64,000 bases of DNA, taken from assembly GCF_003967535.1 (NCBI RefSeq), contig NZ_BIFR01000001.1, positions 2,851,001 to 2,915,000 of the forward strand, written 5' to 3'. A model generated the notes under the pieces. The model worked only from the letters and a program-made list of their open reading frames with translations, did no database searches and had not been told where the DNA came from. The position numbers and the translations under genes are program-made. The stretch comes from Tengunoibacter tsumagoiensis (lineage in GTDB: Bacteria > Chloroflexota > Ktedonobacteria > Ktedonobacterales > Ktedonobacteraceae). Below are positions 11,346 through 40,402 of this stretch, piece after piece (position 1 is the first letter of the stretch; every line of letters begins with the position of its first letter).

Positions 11346-11772
11346 TATTTTTGTTGAAAGGGCAACGTCACTGAAGAGGTCTCTTTTTTCTCCGACGGCA
11401 CATCTGATCTGCAAAACTTGCTCCTTTTTCAGCAAGGAGCCGCACCTTTAGCGATTTTCCTGGGGCAACTGGTAGGTTGCGATCACGACGCCCGCGTTCG
11501 TCGTTCTGGTGCCGACAAGCTGGAATGTGGTTGTTGCCCCACCTTCCGGGAAGAGGCGGCGTCCCGATCCCAGCACCAGTGGGTGGATGAGCAGCACGTA
11601 CGTATCGACAAGGTTTGCCTGCATGAGTGACTGGACCAACGCTCCACTGCCCATGATGACCAGATCCGTGCCTACCTCTTGCTTGAGCCTGGCCACCGTC
11701 TCTGCGGCGTCGCCCTTTAGCAATGTGGAGTTCATCCATGGGAGCGGCGAGACGAGTGTGGTTGATGCGACG
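11317..11772. repeat. 456-bp duplicated segment, copy A
   Basis: Nearly identical (only scattered single-base differences and one T insertion) to 29853-30309, same orientation. It runs from the loop of the terminator hairpin to the middle of the DHFR-like gene. This copy belongs to the intact gene. Confidence 0.9.
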
Positions 11773-12032
11773 TACTTCGGCATATTGTCGAGCATTGCCG
11801 AGAAGGGGCTCTCCTTCTGTTTGGGCCAGACGGCGTAGAAGTCCTCATAGGTTCGCCGGCCCAGTAGCAGGGCGCCGATGGCGGGCATGCTTTCCCCAGC
11901 CTGCGCCATCGCGGCATAGGGGGTTGCCCAGCCACCATACTCAAAGCCGCCCCGGCGATCCTCATCTGGTCGTCCTGGGGCCTGCATGACTCCATCGAGG
12001 CTCAGATTTGTGAAGACAATAAGCTTGCGCAT
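11448..12032 (-). CDS. DHFR-like (RibD C-terminal) reductase family protein
   Basis: A 194-residue protein of the dihydrofolate reductase/RibD_C superfamily that binds NADPH. It starts MRKLIVFTNLSLDGVMQAPG, then has ALLLGRRTYEDFYAVWP, KYVASTTLVSPLPWMNS, DLVIMGSGALVQSLMQ and HPLVLGSGRRLFPEG. These are the usual blocks of the YyaP/YwjB-like members whose substrate is unknown. The start follows AAGGAGGAAATATTC. It lies 97 bp downstream of the AraC regulator on the same strand and may be its target. The 3' half is duplicated at 29985-30309. Confidence 0.88.
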   Translation of the reverse strand: MRKLIVFTNLSLDGVMQAPGRPDEDRRGGFEYGGWATPYAAMAQAGESMPAIGALLLGRRTYEDFYAVWPKQKESPFSAMLDNMPKYVASTTLVSPLPWMNSTLLKGDAAETVARLKQEVGTDLVIMGSGALVQSLMQANLVDTYVLLIHPLVLGSGRRLFPEGGATTTFQLVGTRTTNAGVVIATYQLPQENR

Positions 12033-29852: not shown

Positions 29853-30309
29853 TCGAAAGATGATAAGCATGCCCTTTGTCGTATTTTTGTTGAAAGGGCA
29901 ACATCACTGAAGAGGTTTCTTTTTTTCTCCGACGGCACATCTGATCTGCAAAACTTGCTCCTTTTTCTGCAAGGAGCCGCACCTTTAGCGGTTTTCCTGG
30001 GCCAACTGGTAGGTTGCGATTACGACGCCCGCGCTCGTCGTTCTGGTGCCGACAAGCTGGAATGTGGTTGTTGCCTCGCCTTCCGGGAAGAGGTGGCGTC
30101 CCGATCCCAGCACCAGCGGGTGGATGAGCAGCACGTACGTATCGACAAGGTTTGCCTGCATGAGTGACTGGACCAACGCTCCACTGCCCATGATGACCAG
30201 ATCCGTGCCTGCCTCTTGCTTGAGCCTGGCCACCGTCTCTGCGGCGTCGCCCTTTAGCAATGTAGAGTTCATCCATGGGAGCGGCGAGACGAGTGTGGTT
30301 GATGCGACG
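29853..30309. repeat. 456-bp duplicated segment, copy B
   Basis: Direct copy of 11317-11772 with scattered substitutions and one extra T in the T-run. Its left edge falls in the loop of what is a terminator hairpin in copy A; the left stem arm is missing here. The right edge falls at the codon for the Val of VASTT. Confidence 0.9.
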
Positions 30310-30515
30310 AGCCAGCACTGTCCACTTGGTCCAGCCAGCAAGACAAACCTGTTCCCATAGAGATCGAGGATGGAAATCTGTTTTCCATTGTGGTTTAACC
30401 AGACATGTGGCGCACGCGTTCCAGTGCGTCCAGATGGCTCGTTTTCAAAAAGGATATCATCATTTAACACTGATAGCTTCCCAGTCATAAACGGCCAGAT
30501 CACCAGGGTGATCAT
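29985..30515 (-). pseudogene. Chimera: FAD-monooxygenase C-terminal piece joined to DHFR-like C-terminal half
   Basis: An open 176-codon frame. Residues ~20-70 read SGRTGTRAPHVWL, ISILDLYGNRFVLLAGPSGQ, which is the C-terminal domain of class A FAD aromatic hydroxylases. From residue ~71 it is the second half of the DHFR-like protein (VASTTLVSPLPWMNS to the end), nearly identical to the gene at 11448. The junction at 30309/30310 keeps the frame. Neither catalytic domain is complete. It may be expressed as an odd fusion but is most likely dead. Confidence 0.8.
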
Positions 30516-32978: not shown

Positions 32979-33701
32979 GGCGTGAGACCGATTTCGCTCT
33001 CGTGCTTTTGTCATCCAAACAGATACCGATGAGTATGATGCACTTGCAGTGATCATTGCCACAGGAGCCAGGAGCCAGGAGCCAGTGCCCGCCCCAACGA
33101 GCAGCGCCTCCTTGGGCGCGGTGTATCGGTCTGCGCTACCTGTGACGGCTTCTTCTTTCGCGAGAAAAACGTTGTGGTGGTAGGTGGAGGAGATACCGCC
33201 ATGGAAGAGGCACTGTTTTTGACGCGTTATGCCAGGCAGGTAACTATCGTTCACCGCCGCTCAACGTTTCGTGCTAGCCCGATCCTGGTGGAAAAAGTGC
33301 AGCAACATCCCAGTATTCGTTTCGTCTTGGAAAACGACGTGGTGGATGTTCTTGGGGACGATGCTGTAGAGGGCATTTGCATACGCAACACGCGAACGGG
33401 TGCCCTCTCTCAGTTACCCGTTCAGGGTGTGTTTCTCGCTATTGGACATCATCCAAATACGGACCTGTTTCGGGGTGAAGTGCAACTCGACGACGAAGGC
33501 TATATTCTGCCCGTGGAGCGGACGATGACCTCAATTGCGGGCGTCTTTGCCGCTGGAGATGTCGCTGATCCGTACTACCGCCAGGCGATTACTGCAGCGG
33601 CAGATGGTGCTCGCGCCGCGATGGATGCGAGACGATGGTTAGAGCAACACCAGATTGAGAAGCGTGAGCCGGAACAAGAGACCGCAGGGAGTGTCCGCTA
33701 G
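32979..33701 (+). pseudogene. Thioredoxin-reductase-like flavoprotein, 5'-truncated and frameshifted
   Basis: The first frame carries TDEYDALAVIIATGA. After a (CAGGAGC)x3 repeat the frame shifts to NEQRLLGRGVSVCATCDGFF (redox CxxC), VVVVGGGDTAMEEALFLTRY and GVFAAGDVADPYYRQAITAA to the stop. The N-terminal FAD-binding part is missing. Removing two repeat copies restores ATGASARPNEQR, but about four codons of the family are still lacking. It may once have acted as the thioredoxin reductase (ArsT-like) of the following operon; that is inference. Confidence 0.8.
33062..33085 (+). repeat. 7-bp tandem repeat (CAGGAGC)x3.4
   Basis: Three full units at 33062-33068, 33069-33075 and 33076-33082 plus CAG. 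It lies exactly at the frameshift in the thioredoxin-reductase-like gene. Confidence 0.9.
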
Positions 33702-33749: not shown

Positions 33750-33766
33750 CGTTGTATTACACAACG
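33750..33766. promoter_or_regulatory. MarR operator site 1 (candidate)
   Basis: Inverted repeat CGTTGT-ATTAC-ACAACG preceded by ATT, just upstream of the -35 element of the MarR promoter. A second copy of the same layout lies downstream of the -10. Confidence 0.75.
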
Positions 33767-33772
33767 TTGCTA

Positions 33773-33801
33773 TTGACAACGGAATGGCGAGGATGTATAC
33801 T
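33773..33801 (+). promoter_or_regulatory. Consensus sigma-70-type promoter of the MarR operon
   Basis: TTGACA (33773-33778), 17-bp spacer, TATACT (33796-33801). It is bracketed by two matching inverted repeats. Confidence 0.85.
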
Positions 33802-33813
33802 GCTCGTATCATT

Positions 33814-33830
33814 CGTTGCGGTCAGCAACG
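33814..33830. promoter_or_regulatory. MarR operator site 2 (candidate)
   Basis: Inverted repeat CGTTGC-GGTCA-GCAACG preceded by ATT, between the -10 and the ribosome binding site. It has the same half-site and spacing as site 1. Confidence 0.75.
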
Positions 33831-33850
33831 AAAAAGATAGGAGGAATACG

Positions 33851-34339
33851 ATGGGATCTCATGTCTCGACAGGTGCTTTGTTGCGCGAGGTGGCGCGTCT
33901 GCATGTGCAGTTGCAGCGTCATTGTGTGGCTTATTGTAGAGGAACGACCTCTACGCAGTGTACCGTGCTTACGGAACTCGGGCGCAGCGGGCCAGTGACA
34001 CTGGCAGAGCTCAGTCGCCGGGTTGGCCTGGATAAAGGCTGGACCAGTCGCGCCGTTGAGCAACTGGTTCAGGAAGGACTGGTGGAGAAAGTTCCCAGTA
34101 CACGGGATCGACGAACGGTTCAATTGTCCTTATCTCCCGCCGGACAGGAGCGTCTGGCTGAATTGAGCGGCACGCTGAACGATCTGGCAGAACAAACATT
34201 TGAGCATATTCCCGCAGCGCAACATGAGATGGTCCGTTCCTCCCTCGAATTGCTCCAGCAGGCCTTGCAGACACTGACCACTGAAGTGGAGACAACGGAG
34301 AATGCGGATCAGGGAGGGGCAGCATGCGGGTGCGAGTAG
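33851..34339 (+). CDS. MarR-family transcriptional regulator
   Basis: A 162-residue winged-HTH regulator. VTLAELSRRVGLDKGWTSRA is the HTH and KVPSTRDRRTVQLSLSPAG the wing (DxRxxxLxLT-type). The C-terminus ends GGAACGCE with a CxC that could sense thiol-reactive agents or metalloids. ATG 33851 follows GGAGGAA; upstream frame belongs to the promoter region. It overlaps the next gene by 16 bp. The twin inverted repeats around its promoter suggest autoregulation of the whole operon. Confidence 0.9.
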   Translation: MGSHVSTGALLREVARLHVQLQRHCVAYCRGTTSTQCTVLTELGRSGPVTLAELSRRVGLDKGWTSRAVEQLVQEGLVEKVPSTRDRRTVQLSLSPAGQERLAELSGTLNDLAEQTFEHIPAAQHEMVRSSLELLQQALQTLTTEVETTENADQGGAACGCE

Positions 34340-34851
34340 CTACGGTTGCTGATGCCGCAGGCATTGCAATCATTTACAATCAGGGGATCGAGGACCGGGT
34401 AGGAACATTTGAGACACAGTTGCGCACCGAGGCCATGGTGGCATCCTGGTTTGATGACATACATCCTATTGTGGTGGTAGAGCAGGAGCAGGAGGTTATC
34501 GCCTATGCCTCCACCTCCTCGTATCGTGCGCGTCCCTGCTATGCCGGGATCGCGGAGTTCTCAGTGTATGTTCGCCGGGATTGGCGTGGTAAAGGTGCAG
34601 GACGCCTGGCGATGACACAGCTCCTTCAGGAGAGCGCCGCTGCGGGATTCTGGAAACTGCTCTCGCGCGTGTTTGTGGAGAACGAGGCCAGTCGCGGCCT
34701 GTTGCGTTCATTGGGATTTCGCGAAGTGGGCATCTATGAAAAACATGGACAACTTGATGGGATCTGGCGCGATGTGGTGATCGTCGAATATCTTCTTCCC
34801 AGCAATCTTGCCACTGCATCCTTTGACCAGTCATCTCGTCATACTCTATAG
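34324..34851 (+). CDS. GNAT acetyltransferase, ArsN/PAT-like
   Basis: A 175-residue GNAT of the phosphinothricin acetyltransferase/ArsN group: IYNQGIEDRVGTFET near the start, FSVYVRRDWRGKGAGRLAMT as acetyl-CoA site and FVENEASRGLLRSLGFREVG, then YEKHGQLDGIWRDVVIVE. These enzymes acetylate phosphinothricin or its arsenic analogue arsinothricin. It starts inside the MarR gene (16-bp overlap), so translation is probably coupled. The ArsN label rests on recognised family pattern and context; ordinary PAT activity is the alternative. Confidence 0.82.
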   Translation: MRVRVATVADAAGIAIIYNQGIEDRVGTFETQLRTEAMVASWFDDIHPIVVVEQEQEVIAYASTSSYRARPCYAGIAEFSVYVRRDWRGKGAGRLAMTQLLQESAAAGFWKLLSRVFVENEASRGLLRSLGFREVGIYEKHGQLDGIWRDVVIVEYLLPSNLATASFDQSSRHTL

Positions 34852-34890
34852 CAAACAAAACGTATAGACTTCTTTAGAAGGAGACATACT

Positions 34891-36270
34891 ATGAGTCATT
34901 CGATGACATCTGAACTATCCGCATCGCTGCCGGTTGCTATTATCGGTGCGGGACCTGTTGGACTGGCTGCTGCGGCACATCTTCTGCGTCGCGGGGAAAC
35001 TCCTCTTCTTTTTGAGACAGGTGAGACGGTCGGGGCTTCAGTGTTGCGTTGGGGACACGTTCGCTTGTTCTCGCCCTGGCGTTATATGCTCGATACGCAG
35101 GCGGTCTCACTGTTAGAGGAGACTGGCTGGCAGGCACCTGATGCGGAGGGCTACCCCACCGGGCGCGAACTGGTCGAGGGATACCTCGAACCCCTCTCTC
35201 AGGTTCCTGCACTCGCATCCCACCTTCACCTCAAGACGCGTGTCCTGGCCGTCGCGCGTCTGGGATACGACAAGATGAAAACCCCAGGTCGTGAGCAGGC
35301 CCCTTTTGTGCTACGTGTGCAGCATGCTCATGGTGAAGAGGAAGATGTGCTGGCCAAAGCTGTCATTGATGCCTCGGGCACCTATGAGCTGCCGAATACA
35401 TTGGGGGCACATGGGATGCCAGCGTTGGGCGAACGGGCTCTGCAACACTCTATCTTCTATGGGATTCCTGATGTTCTGGGCAAGGATCGCGCACGCTATG
35501 CCGGGCGCCGGGTGCTGGTGGTCGGTAGTGGACACTCGGCTTTCAACGCCTTGCTTGAACTCGAAACCCTTGCTAAGGAGGAACCGACCACCCAGGTGTT
35601 CTGGGCGATTCGGCGCAAGGAGGCGGGTCAGCTCTACGGGGGCGGAGAGACTGATGCCCTCGCCGAACGGGGGCAGCTTGGCGCACGCATCCGCCGCCTG
35701 GTAGAGAGCGGCCAGCTCGGCCTGGTGACGAACGTTCAGATTCAGAAACTATATAAGACCGAGCAAGGGATTGCCCTCGCGGGTTACGAAGAAGAGCTGC
35801 CCCCAGTTGATGAGATCATTGCGACAACCGGCTTCCGTCCCGATCTCTCACTTGTTAATGAGTTGCGTCTCGCCCTTGATCCGGCGGTGGAGAGTCCGGC
35901 GGTCCTGGCTCCCTTGATTGACCCTAATGTGCATAGCTGCGGGACGGTCCCGCCCCATGGCGTGGATGAACTGACCCATCCAGAAGCCAACTTCTATATT
36001 GTGGGTATGAAGAGCTATGGTCGTGCGCCAACCTTCTTGATGCTTACAGGGTATGAACAAGTGCGCTCGATTGTCGCGGCTCTCACTGGTGATTGGGAAA
36101 GCGCGCGCCAGGTTGAACTGGAACTGCCTGAGACAGGTGTCTGCTCAGTGGATGGCGGTGGGTCCTGCTGCGCGACCCCATCGACTGAATTTCCTTTGAC
36201 GGTAGGAGTGAGACAATTCTCTGGCAAAAGTCTCCAGGTGATTGCACAAGGAAACTGTGGTGATGAGTAA
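34891..36270 (+). CDS. FAD/NAD(P)-binding flavoprotein monooxygenase (ArsO-like)
   Basis: A 459-residue flavoprotein. The FAD dinucleotide motif is VAIIGAGPVGLAAAAHLL near residue 15 and a second NAD(P) motif VLVVGSGHSAFNALLEL near residue 205, with IIATTGFRPDL between C-terminal strands. A Cys-rich GVCSVDGGGSCCATP lies near residue 420. This family of putative monooxygenases recurs in bacterial arsenic gene clusters (ArsO-like). ATG follows AAGGAGACATACT. It lies 39 bp after the acetyltransferase and overlaps the MFS start by 8 bp. Confidence 0.82.
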   Translation: MSHSMTSELSASLPVAIIGAGPVGLAAAAHLLRRGETPLLFETGETVGASVLRWGHVRLFSPWRYMLDTQAVSLLEETGWQAPDAEGYPTGRELVEGYLEPLSQVPALASHLHLKTRVLAVARLGYDKMKTPGREQAPFVLRVQHAHGEEEDVLAKAVIDASGTYELPNTLGAHGMPALGERALQHSIFYGIPDVLGKDRARYAGRRVLVVGSGHSAFNALLELETLAKEEPTTQVFWAIRRKEAGQLYGGGETDALAERGQLGARIRRLVESGQLGLVTNVQIQKLYKTEQGIALAGYEEELPPVDEIIATTGFRPDLSLVNELRLALDPAVESPAVLAPLIDPNVHSCGTVPPHGVDELTHPEANFYIVGMKSYGRAPTFLMLTGYEQVRSIVAALTGDWESARQVELELPETGVCSVDGGGSCCATPSTEFPLTVGVRQFSGKSLQVIAQGNCGDE

Positions 36271-37003
36271 CACTGCAGGGAAGAGAAAAGCCTCTTCCCT
36301 GCAGCCTTTCTCAGACAACTCCAGACGAGAGAAGAGGCTTTTCTCTCCCAGGCATGCTTCCTATGGCTGGGTTCTTGTGAGTGTGCTTGGTCTGACTACG
36401 ATTCTTTCATATGGGACGACGCAATACCTTTTTGGCACACTTGTGATTCCTGTAAGTGACACCTTCCACTGGAACCGTGCCAGTGTCTCCATTGTCTACT
36501 CAGTGAGCTTGCTTCTCGCAGGGTTACTTGGCGTCCCTGTTGGCTACCTAGTGGATCGCTATGGAGCGCGCTTGCTCATGACACTAGGGTCTTTGCTCGG
36601 TGGGCTGACCCTCTTTGGATTGGCATCTGCACATGCCGCCTGGCAATTCGCGCTGCTGTGGGTGGGCGGGATGGGCGTTGCCATGGCGCTGTTTCTCTAT
36701 CCAGTGACCTTTACAGTGATTACCATCTGGTTTGGGCAGGGACGAGGGAAGGCTTTTGCGGTTCTCACCTTTCTGGGTGGTCTGGCGTCACCCATCTTCT
36801 TTCCCCTGGCAGGAGCCTTGCTGCCGATCATGGGCTGGCGAAGCATGCTATTCCTCTTTGGGGGACTTCATCTTGTTATTTCCGTGCCTCTGCATGGATT
36901 GCTCTTGCGCCGAGCGCCTCCCAGAAAAGAGCCACAAAGGGAACATGAGCAGCAAACGCACTCCTTGCTTTATGGAGAAGGAGTACCAGCTCGCCAGGCC
37001 TTT
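36263..37003 (+). pseudogene. MFS transporter, truncated by a transposon fragment
   Basis: The N-terminal ~245 residues of an MFS permease: LVSVLGLTTILSYGTTQYLF, PVGYLVDRYGARLLM (motif A) and six membrane spans up to GLLLRRAPPRKEP. Homology ends near 37000 (EGVPARQA); beyond this the open frame runs to 37159 only as the antisense of a TnpB fragment. The start is ATG 36263, 8 bp inside the flavoprotein gene, so it was the fourth gene of the operon. Export activity is surely lost. Confidence 0.8.
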
Positions 37004-37344
37004 TTCGCCTTTTTAGCTTTCCATCTGGCGAGATGCGAAAAGAAAGAGCGAGCGGAACCCAGCGCGGTGTTAATGGCAGCGCGTCGAAACATGGCGGGAA
37101 TGTTGGGCTCAATCTCGGAGAGTGGCATGATGGGATCAGGATTATCAGCGGTGCGATGAGTACATTTCTCCAGAGCGGTGAGTGCTTCTTTTGTCGGCAG
37201 ATCAAGAAGTTTCACATGGGAGTTGATCACATCAAAGTAGAAGGCGGCCACCCGGTTGAATAGGGCATGGTGAGCTTTAAACCAGAGCGCATGCTGCGGT
37301 TGATAGCACAATGCCTGTTTGATCGTTTTGGTCGCCTTCCCCAT
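36985..37344 (-). pseudogene. TnpB-family transposase, N-terminal fragment
   Basis: About 115 codons: MGKATKTIKQALCYQPQHAL, WFKAHHALFNRVAAFYFDV, PAMFRRAAINTALGSARSFF. This is the N-terminal part of an IS1341-like TnpB/OrfB transposase. It is cut off where the MFS gene begins on the other strand. ATG 37344-37342 overlaps the stop of an upstream 54-codon gene (TGATG), so translation was coupled. Confidence 0.75.
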
Positions 37345-37614: not shown

Positions 37615-38862
37615 TCATGTCACTAATTGCCAGAGAGTAGCGAGCAGAAGTGTTGCAGCCCGATGCAGGGCCTCTGGTTGAACACGCTCCATTGAGTCTC
37701 CAGGGGTATGCAGTTGTGCTGCTCCAACGCTTAATCCCACCGCTGGAAACCCTGCCTGTACAAATTGCCGCTGATCCGAAGCGATGTTACCTACAATTAG
37801 GGGGATATCGAGCCAGCGACCTGCCTGATCGAGCGCCTGGAGCACGGGTTCGGTTTGTGGTCCTGGCTCGACCCAGACCGCTTCATTGAGACAGGCTGCC
37901 CCATCCAGATTAAGCATGAACGGTATTTGACCCTGGGCTTTGAGCTGAGCGGCCAGGACATGTGACCCTTGTGCCCCAACCTCCTCCGCATCAAAAGCTG
38001 CAAAGAGCAGAGGCCGCTGGAACTGGATCTGTGCTTCTGCGATGACTCGCGCCAGTTCGAGAAGGACCGCGACGGCAGCCGCGTTATCTGTCGCCCCTGG
38101 AAGACGCTGGCCTCCCACATCATCACCAACGCCATCATAATGTGCTCCCAGGATGAGGGGCGCAGTGGCGAAGCGCTCCTCAGTCCCAGGCAAGTGGGCC
38201 AGGACGTTGTATCCTTCACTTATCTTGGCAAAGATCGGAACGCGTACACGCACTCGTGTTCCCACGAGCTGTGCATGTAGGTCTGCTCGAACCGAGAGCA
38301 CGGGTAGAGCTACAGGAGCCTGAGCGATAAGACGTTTTACGAGAAAACCATTGGCGTTCGCATAAAGCGGTGTGAAAAGACCAAGCGCACCTTGTTGTGC
38401 AAGCTCGCTGGCCAGTGTTGTGAATGCGGTTCCCAGTGGGACGGCATGAAGCGCTACCCATGTCCCCTGGTAGCTCTCAAGCGCTTTCTCGTCCGAAAAG
38501 AGAACCACACTGCCTGCCGTTATTTCAGGTTGAAAGGCGGATCGTGGGTGCTCACAGTACTCTGTGCGTTGCACAAACGTGCGGAGGACCTCATCCTCAT
38601 CTGTTATCTGCTCAAGTAGCAGTGGGGTAGCCTGTTCGACCACGGGAGCCGAAAGGGGAAATATCTGGGTCTGTGCCTTCCATCCGAGATACTGCCATTG
38701 CTTGAGCAGAAAATCTGTTGCTCCTGCGTGTCCCTGCGTGCCCACGCGCCGACCCGTAAAAGCTGGAGCGCACAACTGTCGTGTGTGCTCCATCATGCGA
38801 CCTGGATCGAGAAGCGTAAGGGCCGCGAGGAGGTCAGGCGGGGCAGCTTGCTCAGTCACCAT
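37615..38862 (-). CDS. M28-family metallopeptidase
   Basis: A 415-residue peptidase. The di-zinc ligands are all present: LGAHYDGVGD (His, ~235), PGATDNAAA (bridging Asp), FAAFDAEEVG (catalytic Glu and ligand Glu), MLNLDGAA (Asp) and LHTPGDSM (His). A PA-like insert (GSVVLFSDEKALESY) precedes the catalytic domain. No signal peptide is seen, so a cytosolic aminopeptidase-like role is likely. ATG follows AAGGAGACAAGC. It lies 30 bp after the Cys-pair repeat gene and is probably in one operon with it. Confidence 0.88.
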   Translation of the reverse strand: MVTEQAAPPDLLAALTLLDPGRMMEHTRQLCAPAFTGRRVGTQGHAGATDFLLKQWQYLGWKAQTQIFPLSAPVVEQATPLLLEQITDEDEVLRTFVQRTEYCEHPRSAFQPEITAGSVVLFSDEKALESYQGTWVALHAVPLGTAFTTLASELAQQGALGLFTPLYANANGFLVKRLIAQAPVALPVLSVRADLHAQLVGTRVRVRVPIFAKISEGYNVLAHLPGTEERFATAPLILGAHYDGVGDDVGGQRLPGATDNAAAVAVLLELARVIAEAQIQFQRPLLFAAFDAEEVGAQGSHVLAAQLKAQGQIPFMLNLDGAACLNEAVWVEPGPQTEPVLQALDQAGRWLDIPLIVGNIASDQRQFVQAGFPAVGLSVGAAQLHTPGDSMERVQPEALHRAATLLLATLWQLVT

Positions 38863-38891: not shown

Positions 38892-39242
38892 TTAGCAGCA
38901 TCGCTGTTGCGCTGGAGAGGAAGATACCTGTACCGGTTCCCCACAACATCCGCTTGTTGCCTGTGTATCGACAGCGAAAGACTGGTTGGAGCGGGGTTCC
39001 CCACAACACCCTGTGTTTGCTGATTGGCTAGTGGAGCCACAGCAGCCACTCGTTACCTGGATATTTGAGGCAATGATGGCTGCCTGTCTGGATACAGGTT
39101 CCCCGCAACATCCTGTGTCTGCCGCTTGACTGGTTGAACCACAACAGCCACCCTGTTGGATAGGGGCGGTTGAAACGGTGGGCAGACCGTGCTGAAAACC
39201 ACCTTTGTTTGCCGGATTTAACGGATGGGAAATCTGAGTCAT
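38892..39242 (-). CDS. Cys-pair (GCCG) repeat protein, putative metal/metalloid binder
   Basis: A 116-residue protein with six vicinal cysteine pairs. GCCGSTSQAADTGCCGEP near residue 32 is repeated as GCCGSTSQSANTGCCGEP near residue 70, followed by TSGCCGEPV and a terminal QRCC. The N-terminal 30 residues have no cysteine; the linkers are polar. No membrane segment. Repeated CC pairs suit soft-metal or arsenite binding, or a peptide substrate for the adjacent peptidase; both are inference. Strong ribosome site AAAGGAGT. I know no named family with this layout. Confidence 0.75.
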   Translation of the reverse strand: MTQISHPLNPANKGGFQHGLPTVSTAPIQQGGCCGSTSQAADTGCCGEPVSRQAAIIASNIQVTSGCCGSTSQSANTGCCGEPRSNQSFAVDTQATSGCCGEPVQVSSSPAQQRCC

Positions 39243-39466
39243 GATGCATACTCCTTTATGTTTCGTTTATGTTTCGTTTTCTTTTGAGGCGTGCTCATTT
39301 AGGGAGACGGACCACCTTGCCAAAAGACGCAACAAGCACACAGGCAATGTTTGTGTACCTACTTTGAAGCCAACAGGCAAAGATGAGAGGAGAATCAGAA
39401 CCAGACCAGGGTCGCTTTGTGACCGGGTGCGTCCTCTTTTGCCCTGCTCCGTCTCCCTGAGTAGAA

Positions 39467-39739
39467 ATGATTGTCACAAGAGAAAGGGCATTGAAGATGT
39501 TTCGAGAAGAGATAATGGCGCACTGGCGCCAGCAGGAGTATGATCAGGCTCATCTTTCCCTGCATCAGCTGCGGGCTGCACAATTGGCCAGGGAAGCAGA
39601 TAGAAAACAAAGCGCATGGCTGAAAGCTCTCTTTATCAGGCTCAAGCACGGCGTGTTGTTGCTCCTTGGTATACATGGCACCAGGCACGTGAAGTGCGGC
39701 TCTGTTTGCGCTTCCCAGCCCTTGACGTGTTGTGCATAA
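39467..39739 (+). CDS. Small hypothetical protein upstream of the sigma factor
   Basis: A 90-residue frame (or 80 from ATG 39497): basic helix MFREEIMAHWRQQEYDQAH, then a short hydrophobic stretch HGVLLLLGIHG and a Cys-containing tail (KCGSVCASQPLTCCA). The ribosome site is weak. It ends 33 bp before the sigma factor gene and could be an accessory or anti-sigma-like peptide. A long antisense frame overlaps, so coding status is uncertain. Confidence 0.45.
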   Translation: MIVTRERALKMFREEIMAHWRQQEYDQAHLSLHQLRAAQLAREADRKQSAWLKALFIRLKHGVLLLLGIHGTRHVKCGSVCASQPLTCCA

Positions 39740-39772
39740 TACAGGCAGAGATGCTCTCCTAGAAGAAAAGGT

Positions 39773-40402
39773 ATGAAGGAATTGGTTCACACAGTTGAGT
39801 TTGCCTGGCAAACACTCCATGATCCTCTCTATCGCTTTATTCGTCGACGCGTGGCAACCGAGGAGCAGGCGGAAGACTTGCTCCAGGAAGCCTTCCTGAA
39901 GATGCACACGCAAGTCGACGCGTTGCGCGAACAGGACAAGCTGGAAAGTTGGATGTACCAGATCGCGCGCAATTTGATCATTGATCACTATCGCAAAAAG
40001 AGACAGGATGTTCCGTTAGAGGATGCCGAGGAGATGCTGCCTCTCGATGAAATCCCCGAAGAAGATATGCAAGCGCAACTGGCTGCGTCAGTCGTTGCCA
40101 TGATTGACTGCTTGCCTCCGACCTACCAGGAGGCGCTTTTGCTCACCGATATGCAGGGTCTCTCACAGAAAGAACTGGCAACACGCCTGGGTCTCTCCTT
40201 TTCAGGAGCCAAGTCACGGGTGCAACGGGCGCGCGAGAAGCTGAAGCAAGTTGTGCTAGATTGTTGTCACGTTGAGTTTGATCGCCTCGGGCGTGTAATT
40301 GACTACTACTCCCATTGTGCATGTTGCCAGACGCAAGGCCAGGTGAAAAAAGGGTGTTCTACTGGGCAGTGTGAATGTGCATCTCAAGTGGCGTCTCCTT
40401 GA
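39773..40402 (+). CDS. ECF sigma factor, SigZ-like, with Cys-rich tail
   Basis: A 209-residue sigma factor. Region 2 has DPLYRFIRRRVATEEQAEDL, LLQEAFLKMH and ESWMYQIARNLIIDHYRKKR; region 4 has CLPPTYQEALLLTDMQGLSQ and LGLSFSGAKSRVQRAREKLK. The C-terminus LDCCHVEFDRLGRVIDYYSH and CACCQ, GCSTGQCEC carries eight cysteines, a pattern of the SigZ group. It probably responds to metal, thiol or metalloid stress. ATG follows AGAAAAGGT. It is divergent from the Cys-pair repeat gene with ~220 bp between. Confidence 0.9.
   Translation: MKELVHTVEFAWQTLHDPLYRFIRRRVATEEQAEDLLQEAFLKMHTQVDALREQDKLESWMYQIARNLIIDHYRKKRQDVPLEDAEEMLPLDEIPEEDMQAQLAASVVAMIDCLPPTYQEALLLTDMQGLSQKELATRLGLSFSGAKSRVQRAREKLKQVVLDCCHVEFDRLGRVIDYYSHCACCQTQGQVKKGCSTGQCECASQVASP

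Follow-up and report, generated by a model that had tools for sequence, protein, structure and literature searches.

SigZ and a candidate arsenical-stress cassette in the Ktedonobacteraceae bacterium Tengunoibacter tsumagoiensis

To which stress does the sigma factor SigZ respond, and which genes does it command? SigZ is an orphan family of extracytoplasmic function (ECF) sigma factors whose role has been undetermined since 1997. Its function is listed as "Not yet determined" (PMC7522486). Here, we analyzed a stretch of 64,000 nucleotides (positions 2851001-2915000, hereafter the window) from the 7.7 Mb genome of the soil bacterium Tengunoibacter tsumagoiensis, which counts Ktedonobacter racemifer and Ktedonobacter sp. 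SOSP1-85 among its close relatives. In this window, a sigZ gene diverges from the genes of a small protein built of vicinal cysteine pairs (CC protein) and of an M28 metallopeptidase. In our favored reading, to which we assign a probability of roughly 0.65, SigZ controls a cassette against arsenical stress, and the products of this cassette would sense arsenicals, bind them and cleave the CC protein. The central elements, in window coordinates, are the following.

37615-38862, minus strand: M28 metallopeptidase (PF04389, alignment of the metal-ligand motifs; no evident signal peptide)
38892-39242, minus strand: CC-pair repeat protein with six vicinal Cys pairs and a conserved N-terminal GGFxxGLP motif
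39306-39331, minus strand: SigZ-type promoter TGCGTC-N15-CCGTC before the CC protein and M28 genes, predicted from conserved intergenic blocks
39428-39453, plus strand: SigZ-type promoter TGCGTC-N15-CCGTC before the small open reading frame (ORF) and sigZ, predicted from conserved intergenic blocks (putative autoregulation)
39497-39739, plus strand: small protein of 80 amino acids, candidate SigZ partner (conserved in five other loci; structure model)
39773-40402, plus strand: SigZ ECF sigma factor (TIGR02959)
40262-40399, plus strand: Cys-rich C-terminal tail of SigZ, candidate sensor (alignments and structure model)

SigZ, its promoter motif and the surrounding arsenic genes

An earlier reading of the window, made from the sequence only, had described a SigZ-like ECF sigma factor with eight C-terminal cysteines. 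The protein is present as described, and its identity can be sharpened to SigZ itself, since it passes the curated cut-off of TIGR02959 (199.7 bits, cut-off 168.65); against NF007215 it lies slightly under (202 against 212). The SigZ of B. subtilis, which has no assigned function (PMC7522486), belongs to the same curated family and also scored above the SigZ cut-off in a control search. Regions 2 and 4 are present in the window protein, and the tail, opening with CCxxxxDxxG, carries its eight Cys with a CC at residues 164-165 and a later CxCC. The CC immediately after region 4 is invariant in the aligned SigZ tails, and in the structure model a beta-hairpin separates this CC from the following CxCC, a layout that could gather the Cys of the tail around a metalloid. 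The small frame upstream of the sigma gene also ends in Cys, as had been noted, with just one CC pair (SQPLTCCA) in place of the several pairs described. Relatives align from 39497 (MFREE) onward, which makes this position a better start than 39467. The small ORF has no family in Pfam or NCBIfam, and its AlphaFold model, built from only six sequences, consists of a single long helix with a disordered tail ending in CCA and shows no anti-sigma fold.

The sequence-only reading had further proposed control of the divergent operon by the sigma factor and had suggested looking for an ECF promoter motif in 39243-39466. This interval holds two divergent copies of one motif: alignment of the divergent intergenic regions of six Ktedonobacteraceae loci showed two conserved blocks with identical spacing, facing both operons; the proposed control is strongly supported by these twin copies. 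In the whole genome, the exact motif occurs seven times: twice in this intergenic region, twice at a SigZ-ArsM locus, where one copy precedes SigZ and the other arsM, and three times elsewhere without a T-tract. Without any tuning, the motif also matches SigZ loci outside the derivation set (G019, G017, G008, G139, G010, G021, G249 and Rhodococcus, where the copy stands before the CC gene). Altogether, it precedes SigZ, arsM and CC genes in further Chloroflexota families and in Actinomycetota, the latter sampled through plasmid records only (72,556 records). Using a somewhat tuned pattern (TGCGTCYHTT-N12-CGTCW), we recovered the motif in 16/20 SigZ-bearing Chloroflexota genomes versus 17/281 SigZ-lacking ones, and 29 of the 34 matches in SigZ-bearing genomes fall within 3 kb of SigZ. 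Matches away from these loci include arsM in trans (L121, G005) and a SigZ fragment beside ArsC (L133); the motif also precedes an arsM remnant (L122) in G009, which yielded no SigZ. In family f24, a variant with 14-bp spacing follows SigZ and precedes short CC genes. At L064:7565-9749, about 2 kb lie between the post-SigZ motif and the short CC ORF, as if an insertion had split them; the two are adjacent in L061. A carboxymuconolactone-decarboxylase (AhpD-like) gene adjoins SigZ under the motif at L059:6962-7477, and genes of this kind are also found close to SigZ on plasmids of Vibrio and Arenibacter; this gene is possibly another SigZ target.

The neighborhoods of 34 SigZ loci were compared with those of 20 non-SigZ ECF loci of the source genome. 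Arsenic-type genes lie within 6 kb at 26/34 SigZ loci versus 0/20 controls (Fisher p=1e-8) and a CC-rich small ORF comparable to the CC protein at 13/34 versus 0/20 (Fisher p=9e-4), with p-values that overstate independence because the loci share descent. An Arenibacter SigZ adjoining an ArsP-family permease was left out of the 26/34 tally. Across the loci, the neighbors comprise ArsN1a, ArsM, ArsC, ACR3, ArsN2 and ArsK-like genes, which lends support to the original guess of a metalloid system and points to arsenicals specifically. The source genome itself has three SigZ genes, each among arsenic-type genes; the second and third operons read ArsR/ArsC-MIP-ArsC-SigZ-CC protein and ArsR/ArsC-MIP-ArsC-ArsN2-SigZ-ArsM. 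Because of the arsenic-gene neighborhood, the shared divergent promoter and the association of the motif with SigZ, we consider it very probable that SigZ drives a regulon against arsenical stress. The sequences show that SigZ, the promoter, the CC proteins and the arsenic genes are coupled. A search of the open-access literature turned up no earlier report that connects SigZ with arsenic.

The CC protein and its peptidase partner

The CC protein, with six CC pairs and a good ribosome site before its ORF as first described, has 116 amino acids and 12 Cys, each within one of the pairs, in the order GCCGSTSQ, GCCGEP, GCCGSTSQ, GCCGEP, GCCGEP and a terminal CC. Its gene is co-directional with the M28 gene, as had been noted; the gap measures 29 bp, one less than the 30 bp given before. 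Homologues keeping the CC spacing and the gene neighborhood, on which the earlier proposal had been made to depend, were looked for and found. Orthologues occupy the same genomic place in four Ktedonobacter genomes, and the ratio of nonsynonymous to synonymous substitution rates (dN/dS) between orthologues is 0.11-0.27, indicating purifying selection. Over six loci, all 12 Cys and the GGFxxGLP motif are invariant, while the spacers differ in sequence and length. Distant CC proteins of the same design adjoin M28 genes in another Chloroflexota family (G345/L080) and in Nonomuraea (L065, Actinomycetota), both with a GGF motif close to the N-terminus. Chance similarity of a Cys-rich low-complexity protein is ruled out by dN/dS, Cys conservation, synteny and the promoter evidence.

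The CC protein has no curated family in Pfam or NCBIfam and hence no match to a metallothionein or ArsD model. Metallothioneins and the arsenic chaperone ArsD are likewise small and bind soft metals through Cys that stand close together, in ArsD as vicinal pairs. The CC protein resembles them in size and in its closely spaced Cys and differs in its CC beads set in Gly/Ser/Thr/Gln-rich spacers, its N-terminal GGF motif and its peptidase partner. CC-rich segments similar to it are found at the N-termini of neighboring ArsM enzymes. The CC protein, a putatively disordered string of vicinal Cys pairs, is probably a thiol buffer for trivalent arsenicals. A second, shorter family, roughly CCxxExxAxCC...KxxCC...CGC, is encoded next to SigZ under a SigZ-type motif in family f24, Rhodococcus and Nonomuraea; among the plasmid records, it occurs in exactly the five Rhodococcus records with SigZ.

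The M28 protein of the window matches PF04389 with 113.5 bits (cut-off 21.3, E=1.4e-32) and retains the metal-ligand motifs (H241, D259, E293/E294, D320 and H385); in the Nonomuraea protein, the last metal-ligand His is replaced. Searching 400 Chloroflexota genomes for this CC-type subfamily (E<=1e-40) returned eight copies in six genomes. A CC protein ORF adjoins 9/9 CC-type M28 genes, comprising these eight and the one of Nonomuraea, with the CC ORF of L022 frameshifted. In G051 and G063, M28 genes further removed from this subfamily are likewise adjacent to CC proteins, and in G345 the pair stands beside an ArsR-type regulator gene, not SigZ. The frameshifted case (L022:6677-8459, genome G016) is a second M28-CC copy with no SigZ within the 16 kb examined. 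Sequence and fold searches of the PDB returned nothing beyond general aminopeptidases and ECF factors. Their invariable association points to the CC protein, whether free or loaded, as the substrate of the peptidase, which would thus probably process it; this is the weakest step of the mechanism proposed below.

The co-directional cassette at 33752-37159

Further genes of the cassette, together with a third promoter copy, lie on the far side of the M28 gene.

33752-34339, plus strand: MarR-family regulator, first gene of the cassette (weak MarR-family matches; position conserved in Ktedonobacter loci)
34324-34851, plus strand: ArsN1 family A arsinothricin-resistance N-acetyltransferase, ArsN1a (NF040503, 222.6 bits, cut-off 170)
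34815-34840, plus strand: weak SigZ-type promoter copy TGCATC-N15-TCGTC before the flavoprotein gene, read from the sequence
34891-36270, plus strand: FAD/NAD(P)H oxidoreductase (flavoprotein), a relative of YpdA and ArsO that scores under the cut-off of either family
36242-37159, plus strand: ArsK-like exporter of the major facilitator superfamily, truncated (NF033733 match; tblastn)

The order in the window is MarR, ArsN1a, flavoprotein, ArsK-like exporter and M28-CC, followed by the divergent small ORF and SigZ. Relatives carry the same cassette, which in G006 directly follows ArsC-ArsR-ACR3. Intact Ktedonobacter cassettes have three motif copies, before SigZ, CC-M28 and the flavoprotein gene; the last reads TGCGTC-N15-[TG]CGTC in relatives and sits in the same place as the weak window copy. 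The flavoprotein is only related to ArsO (NF040505, 53 bits, cut-off 425), and its position beside SigZ is conserved in Chloroflexota, Rhodococcus and Nonomuraea. The exporter, at 113.6 bits in the window and 126-164 bits in intact relatives against an ArsK cut-off of 400 bits (NF033733), is ArsK-like only. Beside the cassette, 33174-33701 encodes, in an ArsT-like position, the C-terminal half of a thioredoxin reductase whose N-terminal half was not seen, a further sign of erosion at the cassette edge. Elsewhere in the window, a RibD-like stretch, ASTTLVSPLPWMNSTLLKGDAA, is present twice (11448-12032 and 29985-30515); the latter copy is fused to part of another protein and looks like a recombination chimera.

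Proposed mechanism and competing explanations

We propose that trivalent arsenicals, inorganic or organic, would bind the Cys cluster of the SigZ tail and activate the sigma factor, and that the Cys tail of the co-encoded small protein perhaps binds them too. SigZ would then recognize TGCGTC-N15-CCGTC and switch on both its own operon and the divergent one for the CC protein and M28; in relatives, flavoprotein-exporter genes or arsM would be switched on as well. The promoter comparisons argue strongly for this step. The CC protein may buffer trivalent arsenicals, the M28 peptidase may process or recycle the CC protein, and flavoprotein, ArsN1a and ArsK-like exporter could contribute oxidation, acetylation or export of organoarsenicals. 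A more far-reaching version, which we offer tentatively and expect to fail somewhat sooner than to hold, would have SigZ sense trivalent arsenicals as a one-component system and use, in at least two phyla, a promoter class of its own, commanding new arsenic-binding CC-string proteins that a dedicated M28 peptidase turns over as a new detoxification step.

Several observations weigh against an arsenical-stress cassette under SigZ. Arsenic neighbors and exact motif are both absent at the Priestia and Vibrio SigZ loci, so the claim is not made for all SigZ proteins, and the tail of the Priestia plasmid SigZ has the CC pair only. ArsC, ACR3 and ArsM are not beside the window SigZ; ArsC and ArsM are beside the other SigZ genes of the genome. 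The window exporter retains residues 1-254 of a 449-residue relative before unrelated sequence follows, and this copy is probably non-functional because of its truncation. In addition, a looser motif pattern was picked after the SigZ loci had been seen, the loci are kin by descent, which makes the samples behind the p-values non-independent, and the ECF controls come from one genome.

One alternative is a general system for thiophilic metals or thiol stress (Hg, Cd, Zn, Sb or electrophiles), with the arsenic genes as one branch of the SigZ regulon. CC pairs do bind many soft metals, the flavoprotein resembles the thiol-disulfide reductase YpdA, the SigZ proteins of Priestia and Vibrio are without arsenic neighbors, and a few kb away in Rhodococcus there are genes for a P-type ATPase and ArsR/SmtB. 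There is also a precedent in CorE and CorE2 of Myxococcus xanthus (former ECF44, now ECF238), ECF factors whose Cys-rich C-terminal domains sense Cu or Cd/Zn (PMC8999054). The window SigZ shares such a C-terminal Cys-rich domain with them; unlike them, it belongs to another curated family (TIGR02959), has its vicinal CC right after region 4 and stands among arsenic genes. Between residues 78 and 106, the window SigZ has no CXC, the linker motif of CorE; it therefore may work like CorE, yet is not classed as CorE. However, the genes found recurrently under the motif or beside SigZ are ArsM, ArsN1a, ArsN2, ArsC and ArsK-like, and we regard a general metal response as unlikely.

Distinctly more improbable is that the CC protein is a precursor akin to ribosomally synthesized and post-translationally modified peptides (RiPPs), with several GCCG cores, its leader or spacers trimmed by the M28 peptidase, its Cys modified by the flavoprotein and the product secreted by the exporter. 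The leader-like conserved N-terminus (GGFxxGLP) ahead of repeated cores and variable spacers, the obligate peptidase partner and the co-regulated flavoprotein and exporter would fit this picture, but no RiPP-modifying enzyme was recognized, M28 is an aminopeptidase family, exporter and flavoprotein are present at loci without the M28 pair (L061-L064), and CC-like segments occur within ArsM N-termini. That SigZ is a mere passenger in ars islands, with the motif serving a different regulator, for instance ArsR or MarR, whose genes accompany many loci, is the least probable of all, since the motif is directional, is built like an ECF promoter, with fixed spacing and CGTC at -10, and follows the presence of SigZ across genomes.

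The SigZ-controlled cassette shares ArsN1a, ArsK-like and ArsO-like proteins, and in relatives ArsM and ArsC, with ArsR-controlled ars operons (ArsC, ACR3, ArsM, ArsN, ArsK, ArsO) and differs from them in its sigma factor with its own promoter class and in the added CC protein-M28 pair. Now that a promoter, a list of targets and a possible inducer can be named, the role of SigZ becomes testable. If true, our reading would extend arsenic control, otherwise described in terms of ArsR-type repressors, by a route through a sigma factor, and arsenic handling in soil bacteria would gain a new family of small Cys-pair proteins that are partnered by a peptidase.
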